Source: Thermoplasmatales archaeon (GTDB lineage Archaea > Thermoplasmatota > Thermoplasmata > Methanomassiliicoccales > Methanomethylophilaceae). From it: a stretch of 64,000 bases of DNA. Position numbers and translations under genes: made by a program. The notes under the pieces were generated by a model. The model had not been told where the DNA came from and made no database searches. It saw nothing but the letters and a program-made list of their open reading frames with translations. Positions 2,664 to 37,130 of the stretch are shown here, piece after piece. The stretch is taken from positions 1 to 64,000 of the forward strand of contig JAAYZC010000003.1 in the NCBI GenBank assembly GCA_012515075.1, read 5' to 3'. Each line of letters starts with the position of its first letter. Position 1 is the first letter of the stretch.

Positions 2664-4253
2664 TCAGGCCTCTATCCTGAGGATCCTCATGTCGCTTCCG
2701 ACCTCGCCGTTGGCCTTGAGGCCGAAGGTCCCCACCAGGACGTCCAGTATCGCCGGGGTGACGAACTCGGGCAGGCGGGGGCCCAGCATGATGTCCTTTA
2801 TGCCCAGGTGGAGCAGCGAGAGCAGCACAAGGCATGCCTTCTGCTCGAACCATGCTATGTTGAAGGACAGCGGGAGCTCGTTGATGCTCACACCAAAGGC
2901 CTTGGACAGCGCATCGGCTATGACCACGAGAGAGTAGCAGTCGTTGCACTGACCGGCGTCTATGACGCGGGGTATGCCTCCGATGTCTCCGAGACCCAAC
3001 TTGTTGTAGCGGTACTTGGCGCATCCCGCGGTCAATATGACCGTGTCCGCAGGAAGGGCCTTCGCGAACTCGGTGTAGTAGGTCCTGCCCTTCTCCCTGC
3101 CATCGCAGCCGGCCATGACGACGAACCTCTTGATCGCGCCCGTCTTCACGGCATCCACCACCTTGTCCGCCAGGGACAGCACCGTTCCGTGGGCCAATCC
3201 TATCACCAGCTCCATGTCGTCTATCTTCTCCGGGGGCTTGCACCCCTTGGCCATCATGATGATCTCGGAGAAGTCCTTGTCGCCGTTCACGTCCGCAGGT
3301 ATGTACTTCACCCCGGAGACCCCTGCGACACCGGTGGTGAACAGCCTGTCCTTGTACTCGTCGGTGGGTATGAGAACGCAGTTGGTGGTCAGCAGTATGG
3401 GTCCGTTGAAGGAGGCGAACTCCTTCTTCTGCTCGTACCAGGCACCGCCGTAGTTGCCCACCAGATTGTCGTACCTCTTGAGCTCGGGGTATGCGTTGGC
3501 CGGGAGCATCTCGCCGTGGGTGTAGACATCGATGCCCGTGCCCCTGGTCTGCTCCAGGAGCATCCTGAGGTCCTTCAGGTCGTGGCCGGAGATCAGGATG
3601 CCGGGGTTCTTGCCGACACCTGTCTTCACCACGGTTATCTCGGGGGTGCCGAAGGTGTCGGTGTTGGCCTTGTCCAGGAGGGCCATGCACGTGACTCCCG
3701 CCTCGCCGCATTCCATGTTGAGTGCGACCAGTTCATCGGCCGACAGGTCCTTCCTTATGGCTGCCAGGCCCTTCCTGAGGAACGCCTCCACCTCTTCGTC
3801 GGTCCTTCCGAGGACCACGGCATGGTGGTAGTAGGCTGCCAGTCCCTTTAGTCCGGCCAGCAGGAGCTCCTTCAGGGAGCGCAGGTCGGCGTTCCTGTCG
3901 AAGGATTCGATGCCCACTCCCTCGGGGGGATGGGAGGTCCCGCAGAAGTGGCATGCCGCATCCAGCTCCTTTATCAGAGCCTTGTTCTCCCTGAAACAGC
4001 TCTGGATGGTATCCAGATCGAAGTTGGTGTTGGTAAGTGTCATGAACAGCCCGTCCGCCACTCTGGCGTCTATATCGGCCAGGACGTCCGCGGGCAGATC
4101 CTTCTCCTCTGCGGCCTTGGACAGGACCATGAGCGACTGTATCAGGAGGTCCTGGGCATCCGCTACTTCCGGTGTCTTGCCGCAGACCCCTATCTTCGTG
4201 CATCCTCCGTTCTTTATCGTCTCTTCACATTGTCTGCATCTCATATGATTCAC
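2664..4253 (-). CDS. hcp: Hydroxylamine reductase / hybrid cluster protein
   Basis: N-terminal CRQCEE...GGCTKIGVCGKTPEVADAQDLL Hcp signature and full-length prismane-type sequence (529 aa). Confidence 0.93.
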   Translation of the reverse strand: MNHMRCRQCEETIKNGGCTKIGVCGKTPEVADAQDLLIQSLMVLSKAAEEKDLPADVLADIDARVADGLFMTLTNTNFDLDTIQSCFRENKALIKELDAACHFCGTSHPPEGVGIESFDRNADLRSLKELLLAGLKGLAAYYHHAVVLGRTDEEVEAFLRKGLAAIRKDLSADELVALNMECGEAGVTCMALLDKANTDTFGTPEITVVKTGVGKNPGILISGHDLKDLRMLLEQTRGTGIDVYTHGEMLPANAYPELKRYDNLVGNYGGAWYEQKKEFASFNGPILLTTNCVLIPTDEYKDRLFTTGVAGVSGVKYIPADVNGDKDFSEIIMMAKGCKPPEKIDDMELVIGLAHGTVLSLADKVVDAVKTGAIKRFVVMAGCDGREKGRTYYTEFAKALPADTVILTAGCAKYRYNKLGLGDIGGIPRVIDAGQCNDCYSLVVIADALSKAFGVSINELPLSFNIAWFEQKACLVLLSLLHLGIKDIMLGPRLPEFVTPAILDVLVGTFGLKANGEVGSDMRILRIEA

Positions 4254-21210: not shown

Positions 21211-21615
21211 TTACGCTTCCCGATCTGAGCATTCCGTCAGGGCTTCCTCCTTCATTGTCCTTATCGTGAGTATGTGCACGGTTACGCAAAGCCCGACGAC
21301 CAGCAACAGCATGGGCATCCATCCTGAAAACGACAGGGCTACCGCCGAGATGGCCAGCACAGACCAGAGGAAGGTGAGCGATACGGCCTTCACCCGCAGG
21401 GGGACACCCACCTTGTCCTTGTAATTCCTGATGTAATGACCGAAATAGGGAGTAATCTCCAGCCATGCGCGAAGACGCGGGCTGCCTGTGGAGAAGCAGG
21501 CCGCCGCCAGCAGGACCAGAGGGGTCGTGGGGAGTATCGGGACCACTATCCCGACGGCCCCCACGGCAAGAGAGATACCCCCGGCGACCACCAGGAGCCT
21601 GTTCCTCAGGTGCAT
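21211..21615 (-). CDS. DUF454 (YbaN-like) inner membrane protein
   Basis: [31 protein letters not shown] signature. Confidence 0.85.
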
Positions 21616-23114
21616 TTGGTGGCTTCCTCTAGCTCTGCATGGCTCATCTTAGACAGCTCTATCACCCGAGGGAGGTCCAGGCCAAGAGCCTCGGTCATGC
21701 GCTCCCCGTACTCCCTGTCCGCCAGGTAGCAGTGAGCCGCATGGCGGTACTTCACATTCTGGGTGACCGGCGCTATGTCCGCCGCCGTGTTCGATATCAA
21801 CAGCCGCTTCTCGTTCTCGGGTATGAGCCTCCAGAGGTCCCCCGCCTGATAGAAGCAATCGTCCGTCGGATCGTCCTTGGGGTCGTAATGGTATATGTCC
21901 CCGTCGACCGAGAGAGGAGGCTCGCGGTAGGAGACCTGTTCCTTCCACTCGTCCATGCAGTTGGGCTCGTATCCTTTTGTGGATCCGTAGTTTCCATCCA
22001 CCCTCATCTTTCCATCACGGTGGTAGCTGTGTACTCTGCACTTCGCAGAGTTTACCGGGATCTGGTCGGCGTTGACCCCCAGGCGGTACCTCTGGGCATC
22101 CCCGTATGAGAAGAGCCTCCCCTGCAGGAGCTTGTCCGGCGACAGTCCTATGCCCGGGACAACGTGGGAGGGGTTGAACGCCGCCTGTTCCACATCCGCG
22201 AAGTAGTTGTCGGGATTCCTGTTTAGCTCCATGACGCCCACCTCTATCAGCGGGTACTCCTTCTTGCTCCAGACCTTGGTCACGTCGAACGGGTTCTCCC
22301 TGTGGTTGCGGGCCTGCTCCTCAGTCATTATCTGGAAGTACATGGTCCAGCGGGGGTAGTCCCCGCGTTCTATGGCCTCGTAGAGGTCCCTCTGGTGGCT
22401 CTCACGGTCAATCGAGACTGTATTGGCGGCCTCTTCGTTGGTCATGTTCTTTATGCCCTGCTGAGTCCTCATATGGAACTTCACCCAGAAGCGCTCGTTG
22501 TCCTCGTTGTACAGTGAGAATGTGTGGCTTCCGAAACCGTGCATGTGCCTGTAAGATGCGGGTATCCCGCGGTCGGACATCACGATGGTGACCTGGTGGA
22601 AGGCCTCCGGGAGCAGCGTCCAGAAGTCCCAGTTGTTCTGGGGGGAGCGGAGATTCGTCCTGGGATCGCGTTTAACCGCATGATTTAAATCGGGGAATCT
22701 GAGCGGGTCGCGCAGGAAGAAAACGGGGGTGTTGTTGCCCACCAGATCCCAATTACCCTCCTCGGTGTAGAACTTGACGGCGAAACCGCGTATGTCCCTC
22801 TCGGCATCCGCGGCCCCTCTCTCCCCCGCCACCGTGGAGAACCTGACGAATATGTCCGTCTCGTTCCCCTTCGCGAAAACCTTGGCCTTGGTGTAAGCGG
22901 ATACGTCGTGGGTGGCGGTGAACCTCCCGAATGCGCCGCTGCCTTTCGCGTGCATCCTCCTCTCCGGTATGACCTCCCGGTCGAAATGGGCAAGCTTCTC
23001 CATGAACCATAGGTCCTGGAGCATCATGGGTCCTCTCTGTCCTGCAGTCAGGGCGTTGGTGTTGTCGGACACCGGTGCTCCGACCTCGTTCGTGAGTTTC
23101 TTCTTCTCGTCCAT
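21606..23114 (-). CDS. katA: Heme catalase (small-subunit clade)
   Basis: [59 protein letters not shown]. Confidence 0.95.
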
Positions 23115-23175
23115 AGGATACCTCTCCTGATGCATCGACTCGACGTCGACCCTGAAGATATCGCATCCAGTGGTT

Positions 23176-24837
23176 TTATAGCTGTTCACGCCGGGATCGC
23201 TTGCGTATGGCCACCAACCGGGGCGTCCTGTTCAGGACGGCCGCGAGATCCTCGGGTCTTGCGTAGGCCGCATCCGGTCCCGATTCGCAGGAAACCGCCC
23301 TGGCGATCGCACCTGACACCGCTTCTTCGACCAACGACCTCAGGGTCCGCGAACCGTCCGCCATCTCCCTGCAGGCCGACAGGGCATCGGCCAGAAGGGC
23401 CGTCTGCGCAGTGTCGAACAAGGCTGCCGACGGCACCCGGACCGAATCCGTGCCCACCTCCAGGGACCTGGTGCCCGACGGGCATACATGGACCTCCTTG
23501 CGCCCTTTGGAGAAGACGATGTTGTGCGCCATGGGATACCTGTCCGGTACAGACGGCTTGGACGGCGGGGAGTCCCTCTCCCTCTCTTGCACTCCCGCTG
23601 CGACGAAACCGTCGATCACGATGACCCTGTCGGCGGACTCTATGGCCTCCGTTGAGGAGGTTACGGCTATCGCGGAAGGCCCGCCGGATGAGGGTATGCT
23701 CTGGATTATCGGTATGAACGGTTCACTGCCTGCCGGTATCAGAAGCGACTTTGCGGATCCGGACGCTATTACGGAGGGTTCGGAGGTGTTCTCATCCAGT
23801 AGCAGAAGCCCCGAACCCGACTCGATCGCCTCCGAGGCCGCCACGGCCTGGGACATCGCCGAGGAAGTCCTCTCGGCGGTGAAAGACGAGGGATCGGGGC
23901 ATTCGCGACATCTTCTCACGAACCGGGACACGTCCACTCCTGATGCTGACCGTCCCTCCTCCCTGCGGATCATCACCGCGTCCGGACGGGTTATGACGAA
24001 CTCCCTCCCGTCCTCGGGTATGTGATCGTAGACTCCCGCGAGGATCGCTTCCAGGAACGAGGATTTGCCGTGGCCGGACCCCCCGCATACGATGGTGAGG
24101 CCCTCCGGTATCCCCAGGCCCCTTACGGGCTCCCCGTTCGGCACATCGATCGATATGACTGTATCCGCGGGGGCGTCGAATGGCACCGCGCCGGAGAGCG
24201 GCGCGAGACCGTCCTCCCTGCGGGGGAGGATTGAACCGCATGCCACGAAGGACACCAGCCCCATGCCTCCGAGGCGCGAGCGTATGCTGTCGGCGTTCTC
24301 GGCTGTAATTACGTGGCCGTAGACCTTCGACTGCTTGTACGCCCCGAAGAACATGGACTCGCGCACTATGGATGCGAGTCTCCCGAATATCATCTCCTCG
24401 GCAGCCCTGAAAGGTACGGTCTTACCGGCTGACGGAAGCACCGCTCTGAACCTCACCTCGATGTAATACGGTGTCAGTACCGCGGTGCCCCTGTCCAGGA
24501 TCTCCTGCCCAGGACGGGGGACCGATATCTCGCCTCCGGACGCTCCGGGCACGGGGGACTTGGCGTGCACCCTCGTGGACTCCCAGAACCGCCTGGCGAT
24601 CAGATCCCTCAGGGCTGTCTTCCGGGGGGCGCAGGAGTAAGCGTCCTGCGGGAACCCGGAACGGGAGAGCGGGACCCTCACCCTCATCCTGCTGTATCCT
24701 GAGGGATCGTTCTGGATGTCATCGAAAAACAAGGTGAAATCATCCAGGTCGAAGAATCCCTCGAGGGCCCTGTACTTCTGGAAGGACTTCCCGTCCGCGT
24801 TCCTGAGGGTCTTCACCAGGACCTCTTTGGAAGCCAT
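23176..24837 (-). CDS. Predicted ABC-class ATPase (DUF-type ABC_ATPase family)
   Basis: [14 protein letters not shown] Walker [10 protein letters not shown]; family-level similarity to ABC_ATPase proteins. Confidence 0.75.
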
Positions 24838-28430: not shown

Positions 28431-28829
28431 ATGTCGTACAGCGTGCCTGACGAGGACACCGTCGCGGATGCTATACTGATAGTCATGCACAAGAACCCCC
28501 AGATAGGGTCCCAGAACGAGATGCTGGAACTCGTCAGAAGAGAACTGAACAGACAGGGAGGGGACCACCGCATTAGCGGCGAGCGCATGAGGAGGATCGC
28601 CCTCAACAGGAAGATGGTCTCTCTGAGGATAGATTACCACGAGACCGACGACCCCGAGCTTCCCGAGAGGTGCCCCGTCTGTCAGAACCCCATGAGCCCT
28701 GTGACCAACCGCACTCTCGACGGCAGCATCACCGAGGTTAGAAGGAAATGCACGATGTGCCCGTACTCCGTGGGTTCCAGGAAGAGGATTCCGGGAAGGT
28801 ACGCCTTCAGCAAGAGGGGCCGGACGTGA
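28431..28829 (+). CDS. Archaeal conserved hypothetical protein with C-terminal zinc ribbon
   Basis: CPVCQNPM...CTMCPY motifs. Confidence 0.65.
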   Translation: MSYSVPDEDTVADAILIVMHKNPQIGSQNEMLELVRRELNRQGGDHRISGERMRRIALNRKMVSLRIDYHETDDPELPERCPVCQNPMSPVTNRTLDGSITEVRRKCTMCPYSVGSRKRIPGRYAFSKRGRT

Positions 28830-29138: not shown

Positions 29139-30050
29139 ATGAAGATATGGGAGTTCGCTAAGGTCGAAGGGTCCAGCATTAAGGTGGACAAATGGGTCTC
29201 GGACACTATGGGGCTCATAGAAGGCGGGTGCGTGTACAGCACGCTCTTCAAGTACCCCATGAAGGGTCCGAAGATGTACGAGCTCATACTGTCGATGTTC
29301 CCCCAGGAGAACTACCGCACCCTGACCAAGGTCACCATGTACCTGCAGGACGTGCCCGGGGCCAGCGCTCAGGCCGCCCGCTTCCTGGCCGACAGGGGGA
29401 TCAACATCCTCAACTCGATATCCCTGAACGGCATATCGGACACCATAATCGTGTGGAAGATCCTGGCTGACCTCAACTTCACCGGAGAGGGCGACATAAT
29501 CAAGGAGAGGCTCGCGGAGCTCAAGGCCGCCAGGGACCCCTCGGTGGACAAGATCGACCACATAAGCGTCAAGGCCACGGACATCGGACGTGTGTTCCGC
29601 ACCGAGACCGCCCAGGCCCAGGACAAGATAGAGGTCAGGAAGGGTGCCCCCCAGACCCTCAAGGACGGCGCCTTCGACACGTCCAGGGAGTACGGTGACG
29701 TGCTTTCGGGGGTCGGGGACAGCAACGTCCTGATAACCATGGACTCCGAATCCTGGATACTGTCCATCACATTCTTCAGACCGGGCACCAGACTCGTGAG
29801 GCTTGGTCTGGACATACCCGACTGCCCCGGCGCGATCACTCAGGCCCTGGAGCTTCTGGCCTCCAAGGGGCTAAACCTGATCTCCATATTCAGCAAGGTG
29901 AAGATAGCCTATCAGACCATGTCACTGGAGCTTGTGGCCGACATCGGGGGCACGGACCTGACCGTCAGGGGGCTCGGGGACAGCCTGCCGGAAGAGATGA
30001 GCGGATTCAACGGAATATTCGAACTCACCGAATGCAGCGAACTTGAATGA
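29139..30050 (+). CDS. Double ACT-domain protein, putative regulator
   Basis: Two ACT-like segments (VTMYLQDVPGASAQAARFLADRGINILNS; LVRLGLDIPDCPGAITQALELLASKGLNLISI); ATGA overlap with acsB. Confidence 0.75.
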   Translation: MKIWEFAKVEGSSIKVDKWVSDTMGLIEGGCVYSTLFKYPMKGPKMYELILSMFPQENYRTLTKVTMYLQDVPGASAQAARFLADRGINILNSISLNGISDTIIVWKILADLNFTGEGDIIKERLAELKAARDPSVDKIDHISVKATDIGRVFRTETAQAQDKIEVRKGAPQTLKDGAFDTSREYGDVLSGVGDSNVLITMDSESWILSITFFRPGTRLVRLGLDIPDCPGAITQALELLASKGLNLISIFSKVKIAYQTMSLELVADIGGTDLTVRGLGDSLPEEMSGFNGIFELTECSELE

Positions 30051-32215
30051 GGGGCGGGATGCGCTGGCAGGATTCGACGGGGAGATTCGGGGCGAAGGAC
30101 GCTGGGACGCTTGCCGCCCTCGTGTCCCCGACCGAGGGGGAGAGCTTCCTCTCCGCAGCCTCCGAGGGGGCCATGCTCCTTGCGGATCTGGCCGCCGAGG
30201 CCGTTGCCCGGGCGATATCCGAACACGGCGACGGCGCCCTCCTCTCCCTCCCCGGCACCGAGTACGGCCTGCCGTGCCTTTACGGATGGAAGGGGGTGCG
30301 GACGCTCGCCCTCGGGGAAGCGGAGACGTTCCTGCAGACCATGGCGATACCTGAGCCCTCATCCCCAGATTGCCTCCGGACCATCGGCGAGAACTCCCTC
30401 CTGGCCGCGGAGATCGCGGAGGCCGCCGCCTGCATATCGGGGAGCGGGGCCTGCATCGGATTCATACCCGACAGCGAGGTCGCCGTGCACGGGCTTTCAG
30501 TGGTGGACGGCACCATACCCGGAGCGGCAGTCCTTCTGGCTGACAGCGGACACCGGGAGACCGCCGAGGGTATGGCCGCCGAATGCCTTTCCAGGGGCAT
30601 GTTGGCAATGGTCTGCTGGGATTCCGGGGCGGGTGCCCCCGCTTGCGACCGGAAACACTTCTTGGGAGAGGCTGCTGGGGCCTTCCGTTCTCTCAGCTTC
30701 GCGGTCAGGGTCGCCCTGTCCATGGGCGGGGTGAGGCCCGGCGACCGGAAGGGGCTCAGCTCATACCTGGACAAGAGGTTCAGGGTCGCCGTGATAGGGA
30801 CGGGCGCCTTCAGCAGGCTCGATGCGGCGTTCTTCTCCGCCGCGCTGCTCCACGGAGCTTCGGTGGTGACGGACCGCGACATCCCGGGCGCCCCGGAAGG
30901 CGTGTCATGCTGCGAAGACGGACGCAGGATGGTCATCCGGGCCATCGAGGAGCGTGGCATCGAGGCCTTGGACGCCTTCCCCGACATTCCGGTCAGATAC
31001 GGTCCGGAGTTCGAAGGGGAGCTGGTGAAGGGGGAGCACGTACGCCTGGTGGCCGGAGGGGATGGGGCGATGTGCTTCGAACTCCTGACATCGGCCGACG
31101 GCGATGCGGTGGAGGACGGCAGGGTGCACCTCATAGGTAGGGACATCGGCTCTTTCGGGGAGGGGGACCGTGTCCCGCTCGCTCTGGTCGTGGAGGTGTA
31201 CGGCAGGGAGATGCATGCGGACCTGGAGTCCGTGATGGAGCGCCGTATCCATCGCTGGATCAATTTCGCAGAGGGGGTGTGGCATTCCGGACAGCGTGAC
31301 TCCGTGGAGATCAGGGTCAGCGGAGGAGCCCATGCCGCGGGATTCGTCCTGAAGGACCTCGGGAGGATCGTTGTGAGCATGGTTAAGCGGGAGTTCGGAA
31401 GGACCGTCACCCGCGTCCAGTGCACCGTGGTCACGGACCCTTTGGAGGTCGGGGCGCGCCACCCCGGGGCTTTGGCAGCGTATCGCCGGAGGGACTTGCG
31501 CACGGAGGGTCTGAAGGACCCTTCGGTGGATGATTTCTACTCGTGCTCGATGTGCCGTTCCCGCACCCCGGACCATCTTTGCATAATATCCCCCGAGAGG
31601 CCGGGTCTGTGCGGATCCGTGAGCTGGCTGGACGCGAAGGCGGGAAAAGAGATTTCCCCCTGCGGACCCTATCGTCCCGTCGCCAAAGGCATCGAGAAGG
31701 ACCCGGTAAGAGGAGAATGGACCGGAGTGAACGAGGCTGTGCGCTCCGCCACCGCCGGGGCCGTGCCCCGTGTATGCATGTACAGCATAATGGATGCGCC
31801 GATGACCTCGTGCGGATGCATGGAAGCCGTGGTGGCCGTGACCGCGGATGCCCGGGCGTTCATCATAGCGGACCGGGACTACAGGGGGATGACCCCCGCC
31901 GGCGTGGACTTCCCCGGTCTGGCGGCCCATGCGGGCAGCGGCATTCAGACGCCGGGCTTCATGGGCATAGGCAAGAGTTATATTGCAAGCGAAAGGTTCA
32001 TCTCCGCCGAAGGCGGCCTGCCGAGGGTCGCCTGGATGACCTCACGTCTGAAGGCCCTGATAGGGCCGGAACTGAGAAGGAGATGTGAGGAGCTTGGCAT
32101 GCCGGACCTCCTGTGCAGGATCGCCGACGAGACTGTGACGGAGGATGCGGAAGGGCTGGCGGCATGGATGGAGAAGGTGGACCATCCTGCCCTGCACATG
32201 GATCCCCTTCTGTGA
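30047..32215 (+). CDS. acsB: Acetyl-CoA synthase, bacterial-type full length
   Basis: 722 aa; A-cluster ligands CSMC...LCIISPERPGLCGSVSWLD and CGC motif (MTSCGCMEAVV). Confidence 0.93.
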   Translation: MRGGMRWQDSTGRFGAKDAGTLAALVSPTEGESFLSAASEGAMLLADLAAEAVARAISEHGDGALLSLPGTEYGLPCLYGWKGVRTLALGEAETFLQTMAIPEPSSPDCLRTIGENSLLAAEIAEAAACISGSGACIGFIPDSEVAVHGLSVVDGTIPGAAVLLADSGHRETAEGMAAECLSRGMLAMVCWDSGAGAPACDRKHFLGEAAGAFRSLSFAVRVALSMGGVRPGDRKGLSSYLDKRFRVAVIGTGAFSRLDAAFFSAALLHGASVVTDRDIPGAPEGVSCCEDGRRMVIRAIEERGIEALDAFPDIPVRYGPEFEGELVKGEHVRLVAGGDGAMCFELLTSADGDAVEDGRVHLIGRDIGSFGEGDRVPLALVVEVYGREMHADLESVMERRIHRWINFAEGVWHSGQRDSVEIRVSGGAHAAGFVLKDLGRIVVSMVKREFGRTVTRVQCTVVTDPLEVGARHPGALAAYRRRDLRTEGLKDPSVDDFYSCSMCRSRTPDHLCIISPERPGLCGSVSWLDAKAGKEISPCGPYRPVAKGIEKDPVRGEWTGVNEAVRSATAGAVPRVCMYSIMDAPMTSCGCMEAVVAVTADARAFIIADRDYRGMTPAGVDFPGLAAHAGSGIQTPGFMGIGKSYIASERFISAEGGLPRVAWMTSRLKALIGPELRRRCEELGMPDLLCRIADETVTEDAEGLAAWMEKVDHPALHMDPLL

Positions 32216-32225
32216 GAGTGATAAA

Positions 32226-33155
32226 ATGAACGATATTCCGCAGGTCGCAGAGAAGTACAAGGGTGAGATCGCAGAGATTGTCCTGGGCAAAGGGGACTAT
32301 GTCGCGGGGGGCGCGAAGGGCATGCCCTTCCTTTCCTTCGAGAACCCTTCGAAGAGGAGGCCCATGATAGCAGGAGAGGTCGTGGACGACCTGGAGGGGT
32401 ATCCTGAGATGGCCGCCCGCATGTTCGACGGCCGTCAGAACGACCCCGTGGAATGGGCGGTGATGTGGAAGGAGCTGGGCATGGATGCCGTATGCGTGCG
32501 TCTGCTGAGCACCGACCCGGCCCGCCGGGGCGCATCACCCGAGGATGCGGCCGAGACCGTGAGGAGGATCGCAGACAGGACCGGGCTGCCAGTGATCGTA
32601 TGCGGATGCGGCGACCGTGCCGTCGACGGCAGGACCATGGCCGCCGTCAGCGGGGCCGTGAAGGACAGCCGGCTCATACTGGCCAAGGCCGAGGAGGAGG
32701 ATTACAAGACCGTCTCCGCCGCCGCCATGGCGAACGGGCACGTGGTCCTCGGTTTCTCCAACCTGGATATAAATCTCGCCAAGCAGATGAACATTCTCCT
32801 GTCCGATTTCGGGATAGACGGAGACAGCATCATCATGGACCCGCTCATGGCTCCGCTGGGCATGGGGCTCGACTATTCGTACTCCGTCAACGAGAGGATA
32901 AGACTGGCCGCGCTTTCCGGCGACGGCATGCTGCAACAACCGATGCTGTGCGATACGACCTCCGCCTGGGACGTGGGGGACGCGACGAGCCAAGACGACC
33001 CCGCCCTCGGGGACCCTGTGCACAGGGCCACCTGGTGGGAGGTGATGAGCGCATTGGCCGCAATGATGTCCGGCGCGGATATCCTGGTCATGCGCGGACC
33101 GGCTGCTGCGGACATGGTGAAGGTCTATGCGGCGGAACTCACGGAGGCGGACTGA
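32226..33155 (+). CDS. acsD: Corrinoid iron-sulfur protein small subunit
   Basis: TIM-barrel CdhD/AcsD family (AGGAKGMPFLSFENPSKRRPMIAGEVVDD; LSDFGID..IIMDPLMAPLGMGLDYSYSVNERIRLAAL). Confidence 0.92.
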   Translation: MNDIPQVAEKYKGEIAEIVLGKGDYVAGGAKGMPFLSFENPSKRRPMIAGEVVDDLEGYPEMAARMFDGRQNDPVEWAVMWKELGMDAVCVRLLSTDPARRGASPEDAAETVRRIADRTGLPVIVCGCGDRAVDGRTMAAVSGAVKDSRLILAKAEEEDYKTVSAAAMANGHVVLGFSNLDINLAKQMNILLSDFGIDGDSIIMDPLMAPLGMGLDYSYSVNERIRLAALSGDGMLQQPMLCDTTSAWDVGDATSQDDPALGDPVHRATWWEVMSALAAMMSGADILVMRGPAAADMVKVYAAELTEAD

Positions 33156-34483
33156 TGGCGACCGCGATGGAATTCTTCAAGCTCCTGCCCAAGACCAACT
33201 GCAAGGACTGCGGGCACCCCACATGCCTGGCCTTCGCCATGCAGCTTGCCAATGGAAAGGCCTCGCTGGAGGACTGCCCCCACATCAGCGAGGAATCGAG
33301 GAAAACACTGAACGAGTCGTCGGCCCCGCCCATGCGCACCGTGAGAATAGGTACGGGTGACAGGGCTGCGGTGATGGGGGGTGAAACGGTGCTCTATCGT
33401 CACGAACGCCGTTTCGTGAACCCGACCGTGTACGCGGTGACCGTGTCCGACGGACTGAGCGACGAGGAGATCGTTTCCAGGGTGGGATACGCCGCCTCGC
33501 TGAGGTTCGAGCGCGTCGGGACAGTGTTCAGGTTGGACTGCATATCGGTCCGCAACGATTCGGGGGATGCGGAGAGGTTCTCCGCGGCCGCCTCGATGGC
33601 CGCGGGATCCTGGGATTCCCCCCTCATCCTGGAGTCGGAGAGCCCTTCGGCGATGTCTGCCGCGCTGGACGCCGTTAAGGGACGCCGTCCGCTGATATGC
33701 GGGGCGTACCCCGGCAACATGGACCGCATGATGGAACTGGCCAAAGAGCACGGATGCCCCCTGGCTCTCAGAGGCGGAACGCTGGAGGAGACTGCATCCA
33801 TGGCCGCCCGGGCGAAGGCCGCCGGAATCGAGGACATGGTTCTGGACACGGGGGCGGTGACCCTCAAGCAGTGCCTTGAGAGGCAGACGGCGGCGAGGCG
33901 CGCGGCGGTCAGGAAGAAGTTCCGGGCTCTCGGGTACCCTCTGATGAACCGCGTGGGCTCCGGCGAATACGCTGTGGCCCTGGCGTCCGTATCAACCATG
34001 AAGTATGGCAGCCTTGTCATATTCGACGATCTTAAGCCTTACGAGGCTCTGCCCCTGTTCACCCTGAGGAACAACATCTACACGGACCCCCAGGTCCCGA
34101 TACAGGTCAAGCAGGGGGTGTATCCGATAGGCTCACCCGACTCCCATTCCCCGATAATGTTCACAACGAACTTCTCCCTCACATACTTCACCGTGAGAGC
34201 GGACATAGAGAAATCCAAGATACCGGTCTGGCTCCAGGTTGTTAACACCGAGGGCCTGTCGGTACTCACCGCATACGCCGCAGGAAAGTTCGATCCTGAG
34301 CACGTGGCCGAGGCCTTCCGGGAATCAGGGATACTGGATAAGAGCGATTCCGCCGTCATAGTGCCCGGACTGGTCGCCCGCATGTCGGGGAAGCTCGAGG
34401 AGATCATCGGCAGGAGGGCCGTTGTGGGCACCAATGAGTCCAAGAACATCCCCAAGCACCTCAGGGAATTCATGTCCGGATGA
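33155..34483 (+). CDS. acsC: Corrinoid iron-sulfur protein large subunit
   Basis: N-terminal KTNCKDCGHPTCLAFAMQLANGKASLEDCP [4Fe-4S] motif; TGATG overlap with acsD. Confidence 0.92.
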   Translation: MATAMEFFKLLPKTNCKDCGHPTCLAFAMQLANGKASLEDCPHISEESRKTLNESSAPPMRTVRIGTGDRAAVMGGETVLYRHERRFVNPTVYAVTVSDGLSDEEIVSRVGYAASLRFERVGTVFRLDCISVRNDSGDAERFSAAASMAAGSWDSPLILESESPSAMSAALDAVKGRRPLICGAYPGNMDRMMELAKEHGCPLALRGGTLEETASMAARAKAAGIEDMVLDTGAVTLKQCLERQTAARRAAVRKKFRALGYPLMNRVGSGEYAVALASVSTMKYGSLVIFDDLKPYEALPLFTLRNNIYTDPQVPIQVKQGVYPIGSPDSHSPIMFTTNFSLTYFTVRADIEKSKIPVWLQVVNTEGLSVLTAYAAGKFDPEHVAEAFRESGILDKSDSAVIVPGLVARMSGKLEEIIGRRAVVGTNESKNIPKHLREFMSG

Positions 34484-34517
34484 TGCGACGGCGGCAGGGT
34501 GCGCGCACTCCGGCCGA

Positions 34518-35531
34518 TCAGTCGAACCCGTACCTCGACCTCATCAGCTCGGACACCTGTCCGGTGAGGGCTATAACCCTGTCCGCCGTGGACTCCTCCG
34601 CGCCCCCCAGTCCGCACTGCGGGGTGATCATGGATTGCTCGGCGACCTTATCGCCGTCGATCCCTTTGGCCTCCAGAAGGCCTATTTGGGACTCGAGCAT
34701 GTCCGCCAGAGCTTCCGCCGAGACATCCGTCCCGTCGCTGTTCGGCACTATGCCCCATGATACCACCCCTCCCCTGTCCAGGAAGGACGATAGTTCCGAG
34801 GGGAAGAGCGCCAGGGTGCGGCCGTAACCGTAAGCGTCGAAACTGAGGATGTCCAGATCCGTGCTCAGAACCATCCCCCAATCCGTATTGCCGCAGCAGT
34901 GCACGGCCCTGTGGCATCCGATGCCCTCCATGGACTCGTTCATCCATCTGACGGCGTCTTCGGGGGATACCGATGCGAACGGGGACCCCAGAAGGGTCAG
35001 GGAAGGTTCGTCGAAGAACAGTATCACGTTGGGGTTCCTCTCGGAGAGTTCACGGGCCTGCCATCTGGCAGTCATGTTGACGGTCTTCCTGACAATCTCG
35101 CAGTAGGATTCGTCGTATATCACCGAACGTCCGGTCAGGTCCTGGACCTGGAGCCCTTCGCTGACGGGGCCGGTAACCTGCCCCTTGACCGCAGGGAATC
35201 CGGAGAGGTCCCTGTCCATGAGCTCATAGAGGCCCGCGTTGCATTCCCTCGGGTTCTCGAAATGGTCGACGTCGTCCGAGAGTATCGCGGTGTACGCATC
35301 CGTGGGATCGTATCCTCCGAGGTCCACCGTGATCTTCTGCTCCTCCTCGCTGAACACCACACCCGGAAGGCGCAGCCCCGTCTGGACGTACATGCTCTCC
35401 CTGTATCCTCTGGCCGGCAGCTGTGGCCAGGAAGGGAATGTAATGCCTCCATCCAGTATCCTGTCCACGGCCTTGACCGGATCGGCGTAGGGGAGCGAGC
35501 CTATCAGTGTGGTTGCGAACCTCCATTCCAT
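34518..35531 (-). CDS. Core (C-terminal-only) cobalamin-independent methionine synthase-like protein
   Basis: 337 aa MetE C-terminal fold; FDEPSL, HRAVHCCGNTDW and MITPQCGLGG candidate Zn ligands; no N-terminal MetE half. Confidence 0.87.
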   Translation of the reverse strand: MEWRFATTLIGSLPYADPVKAVDRILDGGITFPSWPQLPARGYRESMYVQTGLRLPGVVFSEEEQKITVDLGGYDPTDAYTAILSDDVDHFENPRECNAGLYELMDRDLSGFPAVKGQVTGPVSEGLQVQDLTGRSVIYDESYCEIVRKTVNMTARWQARELSERNPNVILFFDEPSLTLLGSPFASVSPEDAVRWMNESMEGIGCHRAVHCCGNTDWGMVLSTDLDILSFDAYGYGRTLALFPSELSSFLDRGGVVSWGIVPNSDGTDVSAEALADMLESQIGLLEAKGIDGDKVAEQSMITPQCGLGGAEESTADRVIALTGQVSELMRSRYGFD

Positions 35532-35555
35532 GATACAAGCAACGCCGAGTCCCTA

Positions 35556-37130
35556 TTAAACCCTCTTGCCCGGTCCGAACAAGGAGGGGAATTGCTGCGA
35601 ATCGGTGTGCGGCAGGAACTGGGCCGACGAGTATTCGTCGAAGAACACGGGATCGGAACCCAGATCCCTGTATGTCATCCGCCGGAATGCCTCGGTCGTC
35701 CTTGTGCGGAAACCCTCGGAAACCAGGTACTGCCTGGCTCCGCCCAGGGACGCGTTCCCGAGGTACTGGTACCGGTCCCTGTCCACATCTGGGAAGAGAC
35801 CGATGGCGATGGCGGAGTCAGTGTCTATGAACTTGCCGAACCCGCCGGCAATGTATATCCTGTCGAGGTCTGAGAACTCCGTCCCCAGACCTTTCGCCAT
35901 GGACCTGGCCGCCGAGTATATGGCAGCCTTGGTCATGATTATGTGCTTTATCTCGGATTCTGATATGTTTATCCCGTCTGCCACCGTCAGAAGCCTTTCC
36001 CCGTCCTCTTCGGTGTATGGCGCTTCCCCTGTCATGTTGCCCTTCTTGTCTATCATCCCCGCCAGGAAGAGCTGGGCCACCAGATCCACTATTCCCGATC
36101 CGCATATGCCCTCTGGCTTCGAACCCCCGATCACGGTGTACGTTATCCTGCCGTCCTCTATCCTGACACTGTCTATGGCCCCCGGGTTTGCCATCATCCC
36201 GGAGGCTATGTTTCCTCCTTCGAACGCCGGGCCCGCCGACGACGAGCACACCAGCATCATCTCCGCGTTTCCAAGGGCCACCTCCCCGTTGGTGCCCACG
36301 TCCATGAGCAGGCAGAGGTCTTCCGAGCGGTCCATCCCGGAGAAGACTATGTCGGAGGCTATGTCACCGCCGACATAGGAGGCTGAGCAGGGCATGCATA
36401 CGACCCTTGCGTCCGCTGATACGCCACGGATTCCGCTCTCGGAGCCCTTTATCTCGGACTCCCTGAACTCGGGCACATAGGGGGGAAGCCTCAGAGGGGC
36501 CGGGTCCCTGCCCAGGAAGAGATATGTCATCACGGTGTTCCCTGAGATGCAGACCGAATCGATCTCCGCCGGGGCCTCGAACCATTCCAGAAGGCCGTTG
36601 ATGGTGCCTAACAGCAGATCCCTGAGCTCCCCGGTCCCGTTGTCCTCGGAGTACTGTATCCTGGAGAGCACGTCCTCGCCGCGGATCCTCTGCATGTTCT
36701 CCCCGACGGCCGTGTAAAGCTCCACTCCCTTATCGAGATCCAACACGCTCACGCCCACGGTCGTGGTGCCTATGTCCACCGCGAGACCCAGCCCCCCGGA
36801 CAGAGGCGTGAGGTCCTCGGCGTCCACCCTCCTGCGGTCCGATGCGGCGATGGTGGAATCGCTCTCCTTCCTTATTACCTGGATTACGGCATCGTACGAA
36901 ACGGGCGTCTGGCATGCCAGCACCCGATCCATCCCGCATCCGTCGAAGGGAACATCGCTCTCCGGCGCTATGCGCACGCCGCATTTCCCGCATCTGCCCC
37001 TCCCCCCGCACGGGAGCCTGATGGGCACCCCCGCCTGCTTGGCCGCTTCGGAGATGAGCGTCCCCTCTTCGACCTCCGTCGTCTTTCCGTCCGGATGGAA
37101 TCTGACAGTGAATCCTGACATGCACATCAA
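35556..37130 (-). CDS. acsV: RACo-type reductive activator of corrinoid proteins ([2Fe-2S] + ASKHA)
   Basis: Plant-type ferredoxin motif LPCGGRGRCGKCGVRI...ACQT then ASKHA domain (AVDIGTTTVGVSVLD, LMDVGTNGEVALG, YIAGGFG). Confidence 0.9.
   Translation of the reverse strand: MMCMSGFTVRFHPDGKTTEVEEGTLISEAAKQAGVPIRLPCGGRGRCGKCGVRIAPESDVPFDGCGMDRVLACQTPVSYDAVIQVIRKESDSTIAASDRRRVDAEDLTPLSGGLGLAVDIGTTTVGVSVLDLDKGVELYTAVGENMQRIRGEDVLSRIQYSEDNGTGELRDLLLGTINGLLEWFEAPAEIDSVCISGNTVMTYLFLGRDPAPLRLPPYVPEFRESEIKGSESGIRGVSADARVVCMPCSASYVGGDIASDIVFSGMDRSEDLCLLMDVGTNGEVALGNAEMMLVCSSSAGPAFEGGNIASGMMANPGAIDSVRIEDGRITYTVIGGSKPEGICGSGIVDLVAQLFLAGMIDKKGNMTGEAPYTEEDGERLLTVADGINISESEIKHIIMTKAAIYSAARSMAKGLGTEFSDLDRIYIAGGFGKFIDTDSAIAIGLFPDVDRDRYQYLGNASLGGARQYLVSEGFRTRTTEAFRRMTYRDLGSDPVFFDEYSSAQFLPHTDSQQFPSLFGPGKRV

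Follow-up and report, generated by a model that had tools for sequence, protein, structure and literature searches.

An acetyl-CoA synthase locus with a MesB-type methionine synthase in Methanomethylophilaceae, a family in which CODH is often not detected

A bacterial-type acetyl-CoA synthase (AcsB, or ACS), both subunits of the corrinoid iron-sulfur protein (CFeSP), a MesB-type core methionine synthase and a RACo-type activase are encoded side by side in the window, the 64,000-nucleotide stretch of contig JAAYZC010000003.1 that we analyzed (Table 1). All five frames are open and contiguous, and their order is kept in relatives, which rules out a chance arrangement. Profile matches, open frames and conserved order thus confirm the preliminary description of acsB, acsD and acsC on the plus strand, contiguous with a core MetE-like gene and RACo on the minus strand. 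A start of acsB at 29139 was rejected, since the frame beginning there encodes an ACT-domain protein (PF01842) and AcsB begins at 30047. Gene-order comparison shows that the ACT gene keeps its place directly upstream of AcsB in relatives; its product is a possible amino-acid sensor. Pfam domains and the cysteine motif place 2Fe-2S, RACo middle and ASKHA domains in RACo, at a score under the curated AcsV cut-off.

Table 1. Features of the locus, in window coordinates.
Feature	Position	Strand	Evidence
Small conserved protein	28431..28829	+	upstream of ACT gene in relatives; no Pfam/NCBIfam match
ACT-domain protein, two ACT-like stretches	29139..30050	+	PF01842 at 66-93; weaker TTHA0829-like ACT at 220-253
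AcsB, bacterial-type acetyl-CoA synthase	30047..32215	+	NF040764, E 4e-194; N-terminal CODH_A_N domain
AcsD, CFeSP small subunit	32226..33155	+	E 3e-89
AcsC, CFeSP large subunit	33155..34483	+	E 7e-162; FeS domain, motif Cx2Cx4Cx16C
MesB-type core methionine synthase	34518..35531	-	zinc ligands H211, C213, D232, C306
RACo/AcsV-like corrinoid reductive activase	35556..37130	-	Pfam domains, cysteine motif

Relatives share a larger cassette. The small protein, the ACT protein, AcsB, AcsD and AcsC face an AcsF/CooC-type ATPase, MesB and RACo, after which the cassette continues with an NrdG2-type radical SAM protein and an aldehyde dehydrogenase. The ATPase is closest in likeness to CooC of the CODH/ACS system. 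It is missing from the window, where 34 bases separate AcsC from MesB (34483-34518), and was not found elsewhere in the window genome. Several relatives also encode URO-D family proteins close to their ACS or CODH loci (L045:1328-2452, L036, L049, L062-L064 and L066); this family includes corrinoid methyltransferases.

The window MesB has the catalytic residues of a methionine synthase. It is a protein of 337 amino acids with a single MetE-like catalytic domain and no folate-binding domain. Its zinc ligands follow the H-x-C...D...C pattern at the positions given in Table 1, against 214, 216, 235 and 311 in the published DET0516, and the homocysteine-binding serine and aspartate are present as S12 and D174 (15 and 177 in DET0516), so that the spacing nearly equals that of the published D. 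mccartyi MesB. Sequence searches of Pfam, NCBIfam and PDB gave nothing notable, the PDB search returning a weak match to 3RPD and repeat-protein noise, and a structure model was used instead. The 17 best fold matches of this model, which is of moderate confidence (pLDDT 67), are all methionine synthases (MetE, and 3RPD). Residues and fold together bear out the core MetE-type synthase first proposed. We know of no biochemistry on an archaeal MesB. In a scan of named genomes, in which only MesB was sought outside the family, the named relatives of the protein were MAGs of the Methanomassiliicoccales and Methanomethylophilaceae, 60-63% identical to it. A published study reports that MesB proteins occur with CFeSP, that mesB adjoins acsC/acsD in some methanogens and that Methanomassiliicoccales have MesB only (PMC7857596).

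The McrA gene in the genome marks the host as a methanogen, and the relatives of its MesB place it with the Methanomassiliicoccales (Methanomethylophilaceae); an archaeon had rightly been suspected. The assembly (GCA_012515075.1) comprises 988 kb in 61 contigs. At 78.6% completeness, it may have missed CODH, AcsF or FTHFS. The window of this methanogen also carries a catalase gene (21606-23189) and a hydroxylamine reductase gene (2664-4253, minus strand). The product of the latter, the genome's one Prismane-family protein, was rejected as a CODH.

No CODH catalytic subunit (TIGR01702) was detected in this 78.6% complete genome, and on that point the earlier expectation stands. With no detectable CODH, the module does not appear to be a carbon-fixing Wood-Ljungdahl pathway. 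MetH and MetE were likewise not detected in the genome, which has no PF01717 match; this profile was also silent in the control M. acetivorans, although M. acetivorans has MesC, so a MesC in the window genome is possible. A second Pterin_bind protein was rejected as MetH, since it begins like dihydropteroate synthase. FTHFS was not found in the genome either, although most family genomes have it.

A methyl-pterin branch is nevertheless encoded outside the window. Contig C49 of the same genome carries FolD, MetV, MetF and, converging on MetF, AcsE. The AcsE matches Moorella AcsE (2E7F) from end to end (E 5e-71) and scores above the NF005719 cut-off; MetV was identified by its MetV C-terminal domain, beside MetF and FolD. 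The preliminary description had the organism lacking both AcsE and a methyl-pterin branch. The absence of AcsE holds for the window but not for the genome, and the lack of a methyl-pterin branch is contradicted; among the genes sought across the 78.6% complete genome, CODH, MetH and MetE were not detected, and AcsE and MetF were. It follows that the methionine methyl need not derive from acetyl-CoA. The genome also differs from the D. mccartyi type, in which CODH, AcsE and MetF are all lacking.

The window ACS is divergent. Its 722-residue open frame can be aligned with the ACS of Moorella and Carboxydothermus throughout, and the cluster-A cysteines, CGC included, are intact (C500, C503, C512, C522, C589 and C591). 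The NF040764 match is full-length, at 646.7 bits against a curated cut-off of 800. At the CO-alcove positions G145, I146, V149, F229 and F512 (Moorella numbering), the window has G, L, V, M and R, whereas CFeSP-linked relatives have G, L, V, F and F wherever these residues are covered. The two changes, F229 to M and F512 to R (window M226 and R506), thus fall at positions that are Phe in every other covering CFeSP-linked ACS of the family. In Moorella ACS, the F229A change reduces CO affinity about thirty-fold without impairing methylation, and C. autoethanogenum with the equivalent change no longer grows autotrophically (PMC11321310). The altered alcove reduces our confidence in CO-dependent synthesis and leaves the homology to AcsB unaffected.

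The window ACS has also changed faster than the CFeSP beside it. Relative to CFeSP, the AcsB N-domain distance is 1.94-2.60 for the window and 1.37 ± 0.15 for other inter-genus pairs, and the C-domain distance is 1.07-1.49 and 0.88 ± 0.09, respectively. Since CODH-less relatives show neither the raised ACS rate nor the alcove change, the trait belongs to the window lineage. On the AcsB tree, the window branch is long and its position therefore unsure. Judged from its sequence, the window ACS may be inactive; its divergence reflects either specialization for cleavage or decay, between which the data do not separate.

Across Methanomethylophilaceae, many of which are gut-associated, ACS and CFeSP strictly accompany the methionine synthase, and CODH and AcsE vary. 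Among 90 family genomes, each at least 70% complete, ACS, CFeSP and MesB occur together in 24; this count and those that follow are not phylogenetically independent. MesB is present in all 25 genomes with CFeSP, and CFeSP in 25 of the 26 with MesB. In the one exception (G002), the contig ends about 850 bases from MesB, and the neighbors of the gene are probably cut off. CODH is present in 8 of the 24 and was not detected in 16. Half of these 16 are at least 90% complete, and these eight genomes (90-99%) lead us to reject mere incompleteness as the cause of CODH absence in the family, although in the window genome it may be the cause.

CODH, AcsE and MetF are all missing from 10 of the 24 genomes, as in D. 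mccartyi, and genus g11, up to 99% complete, is the cleanest such case. By gene content, these ten genomes, and not that of the window, would be the true archaeal counterparts of D. mccartyi. MetF and AcsE co-occur in exactly the same 10 of the 90 genomes, the window's included, and four of these have CooS. Three genomes with the AcsE/MetF/ACS set of the window genome (G001, 94% complete; G051, 95%; G052, 91%) have no detected CODH. CODH presence changes at least four times on the AcsB tree, a loss count made uncertain by three genomes scored as CODH-less that are less than 85% complete.

Other variants occur in the family. In genus g12 (G059-G063; L052-L056), near-complete genomes lack exactly AcsD, AcsC and MesB from the cassette and keep ACT, ACS, the AcsF-like ATPase and RACo; neither CFeSP nor CODH was found in them. 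Their ACS is divergent (34-37% identical): CSC replaces CGC, and Tyr occupies the position of F512. The retained RACo suggests another corrinoid protein as methyl partner of this ACS. In genera g6 and g7, a CooS-type CODH adjoins an iron-sulfur protein and a CCG-domain protein that resemble HdrC and HdrB (L058, L059, L061, L066 and L071), and some of the genomes with this CODH have no ACS at all. The CODH of these genera may supply heterodisulfide-reductase-like electron transfer. Partial PF03599 matches (profile positions ~265-386) in frames of 200-360 amino acids (G003, G016, G023, G075, G076 and G089) possibly represent HgcA-type mercury-methylation proteins.

On balance, we lean toward reading the locus as a CFeSP-to-MesB methionine module that is charged from methyl-THF via AcsE, from acetyl-CoA via ACS, or from both. 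Gene content and order, catalytic residues, co-occurrence, AcsE, MetV/MetF and FolD elsewhere in the genome, and no detectable CODH, MetH or MetE form its observed basis; from these we infer the substrates, the direction, the release of CO and the contact between MesB and CFeSP. Methyl-CFeSP (AcsCD) would be the hub, from which MesB would transfer the methyl group to homocysteine to give methionine, and RACo would re-reduce CFeSP upon cobalt oxidation. One charging route would lead from methyl-THF through FolD, MetV/MetF and AcsE of contig C49; the other, if ACS is active, would cleave acetyl-CoA and release CO. As far as gene content can tell, such cleavage is plausible in the window genome and would be more compelling in relatives without AcsE and MetF. 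We are doubtful of a further step, in which Methanomethylophilaceae ACS, uncoupled from CODH, would work in one direction only, decarbonylating acetyl-CoA to feed methionine synthesis with release of CO, the remodeled alcove of the window lineage making CO binding, and hence acetyl-CoA synthesis, weak.

The original proposal, in which this organism would draw its methionine methyl solely from acetyl-CoA cleaved by ACS and give off CO, now seems improbable. AcsE, MetF, MetV and FolD are in the genome, and the window ACS departs from its relatives in both alcove residues and rate, with no AcsF-like gene adjoining it. In favor of the proposal are the missing CODH, the intact cluster-A cysteines and the ten CODH/AcsE/MetF-less relatives, which keep a canonical ACS, CFeSP and MesB, the gene set of D. 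mccartyi; for that organism, PMC7857596 cites labeling of methionine from the acetate methyl. Methyl-THF via AcsE could instead be the sole source, ACS being a relict or serving in another role. The MetV-MetF-AcsE cluster, the two alcove substitutions, the raised distance of ACS relative to CFeSP and the missing AcsF-like gene would fit, but dead genes do not usually keep an open frame of 722 residues and all six cluster-A cysteines, and ACS continues to head the acs operon; we hold this to be improbable too.

That a complete Wood-Ljungdahl pathway makes acetyl-CoA, its CODH being encoded in sequence missing from the assembly, strikes us as quite improbable. Incomplete assembly, CooS in 4 of the 10 genomes with AcsE and MetF, and FTHFS in most of the family would allow it; against it stand the three analogous genomes of 91-95% completeness that also have no detected CODH, the altered CO alcove and the FTHFS not found here. 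It is very improbable that CFeSP and ACS build acetyl-CoA from environmental CO without a CODH of their own, since, despite an AcsE route to methyl-CFeSP, there is no gene for a CO source and alcove changes of this kind are known to make the Moorella enzyme bind CO less well (F229A, PMC11321310).

ACS is usually regarded as the partner of CODH. If acetyl-CoA cleavage holds true, these methanogens would form methionine from acetate and emit CO. The published idea that CFeSP donates its methyl directly to MesB becomes testable by comparing genera, since some show only ACS as methyl source and others also AcsE and MetF. In the literature searched, with most subscription journals outside it, we found no description of the pathway's CODH-free distribution across a family of methanogens, some having AcsE and MetF and others lacking them.

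The pathway idea itself is not new, and neither is MesB in Methanomassiliicoccales. An acetate-to-methionine route through an incomplete Wood-Ljungdahl pathway is already published for D. mccartyi (Deobald 2020, PMC7005905; Price 2021, PMC7857596). The latter takes the Wood-Ljungdahl pathway as present in Methanomassiliicoccales; here CODH is often absent, a point that the sections consulted do not discuss. D. mccartyi resembles the window in having ACS, CFeSP and MesB without CODH, and its MesB is proposed to accept the CFeSP methyl. The window differs in its archaeal methanogen host, in a compact cassette that also encodes RACo and an ACT protein, and in a genome that has AcsE and MetF, both of which D. 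mccartyi lacks. Moorella thermoacetica shares the bacterial-type AcsB, CFeSP, AcsE and RACo-type activator families; compared with it, the window has no detectable CODH, two changed ACS alcove residues and an added MesB. The Methanosarcina ACDS complex (CdhABCDE) has a homologous ACS core and CFeSP; no CdhA was found in the window genome, and the bacterial N-terminal domain, missing from CdhC, is retained in the window AcsB.
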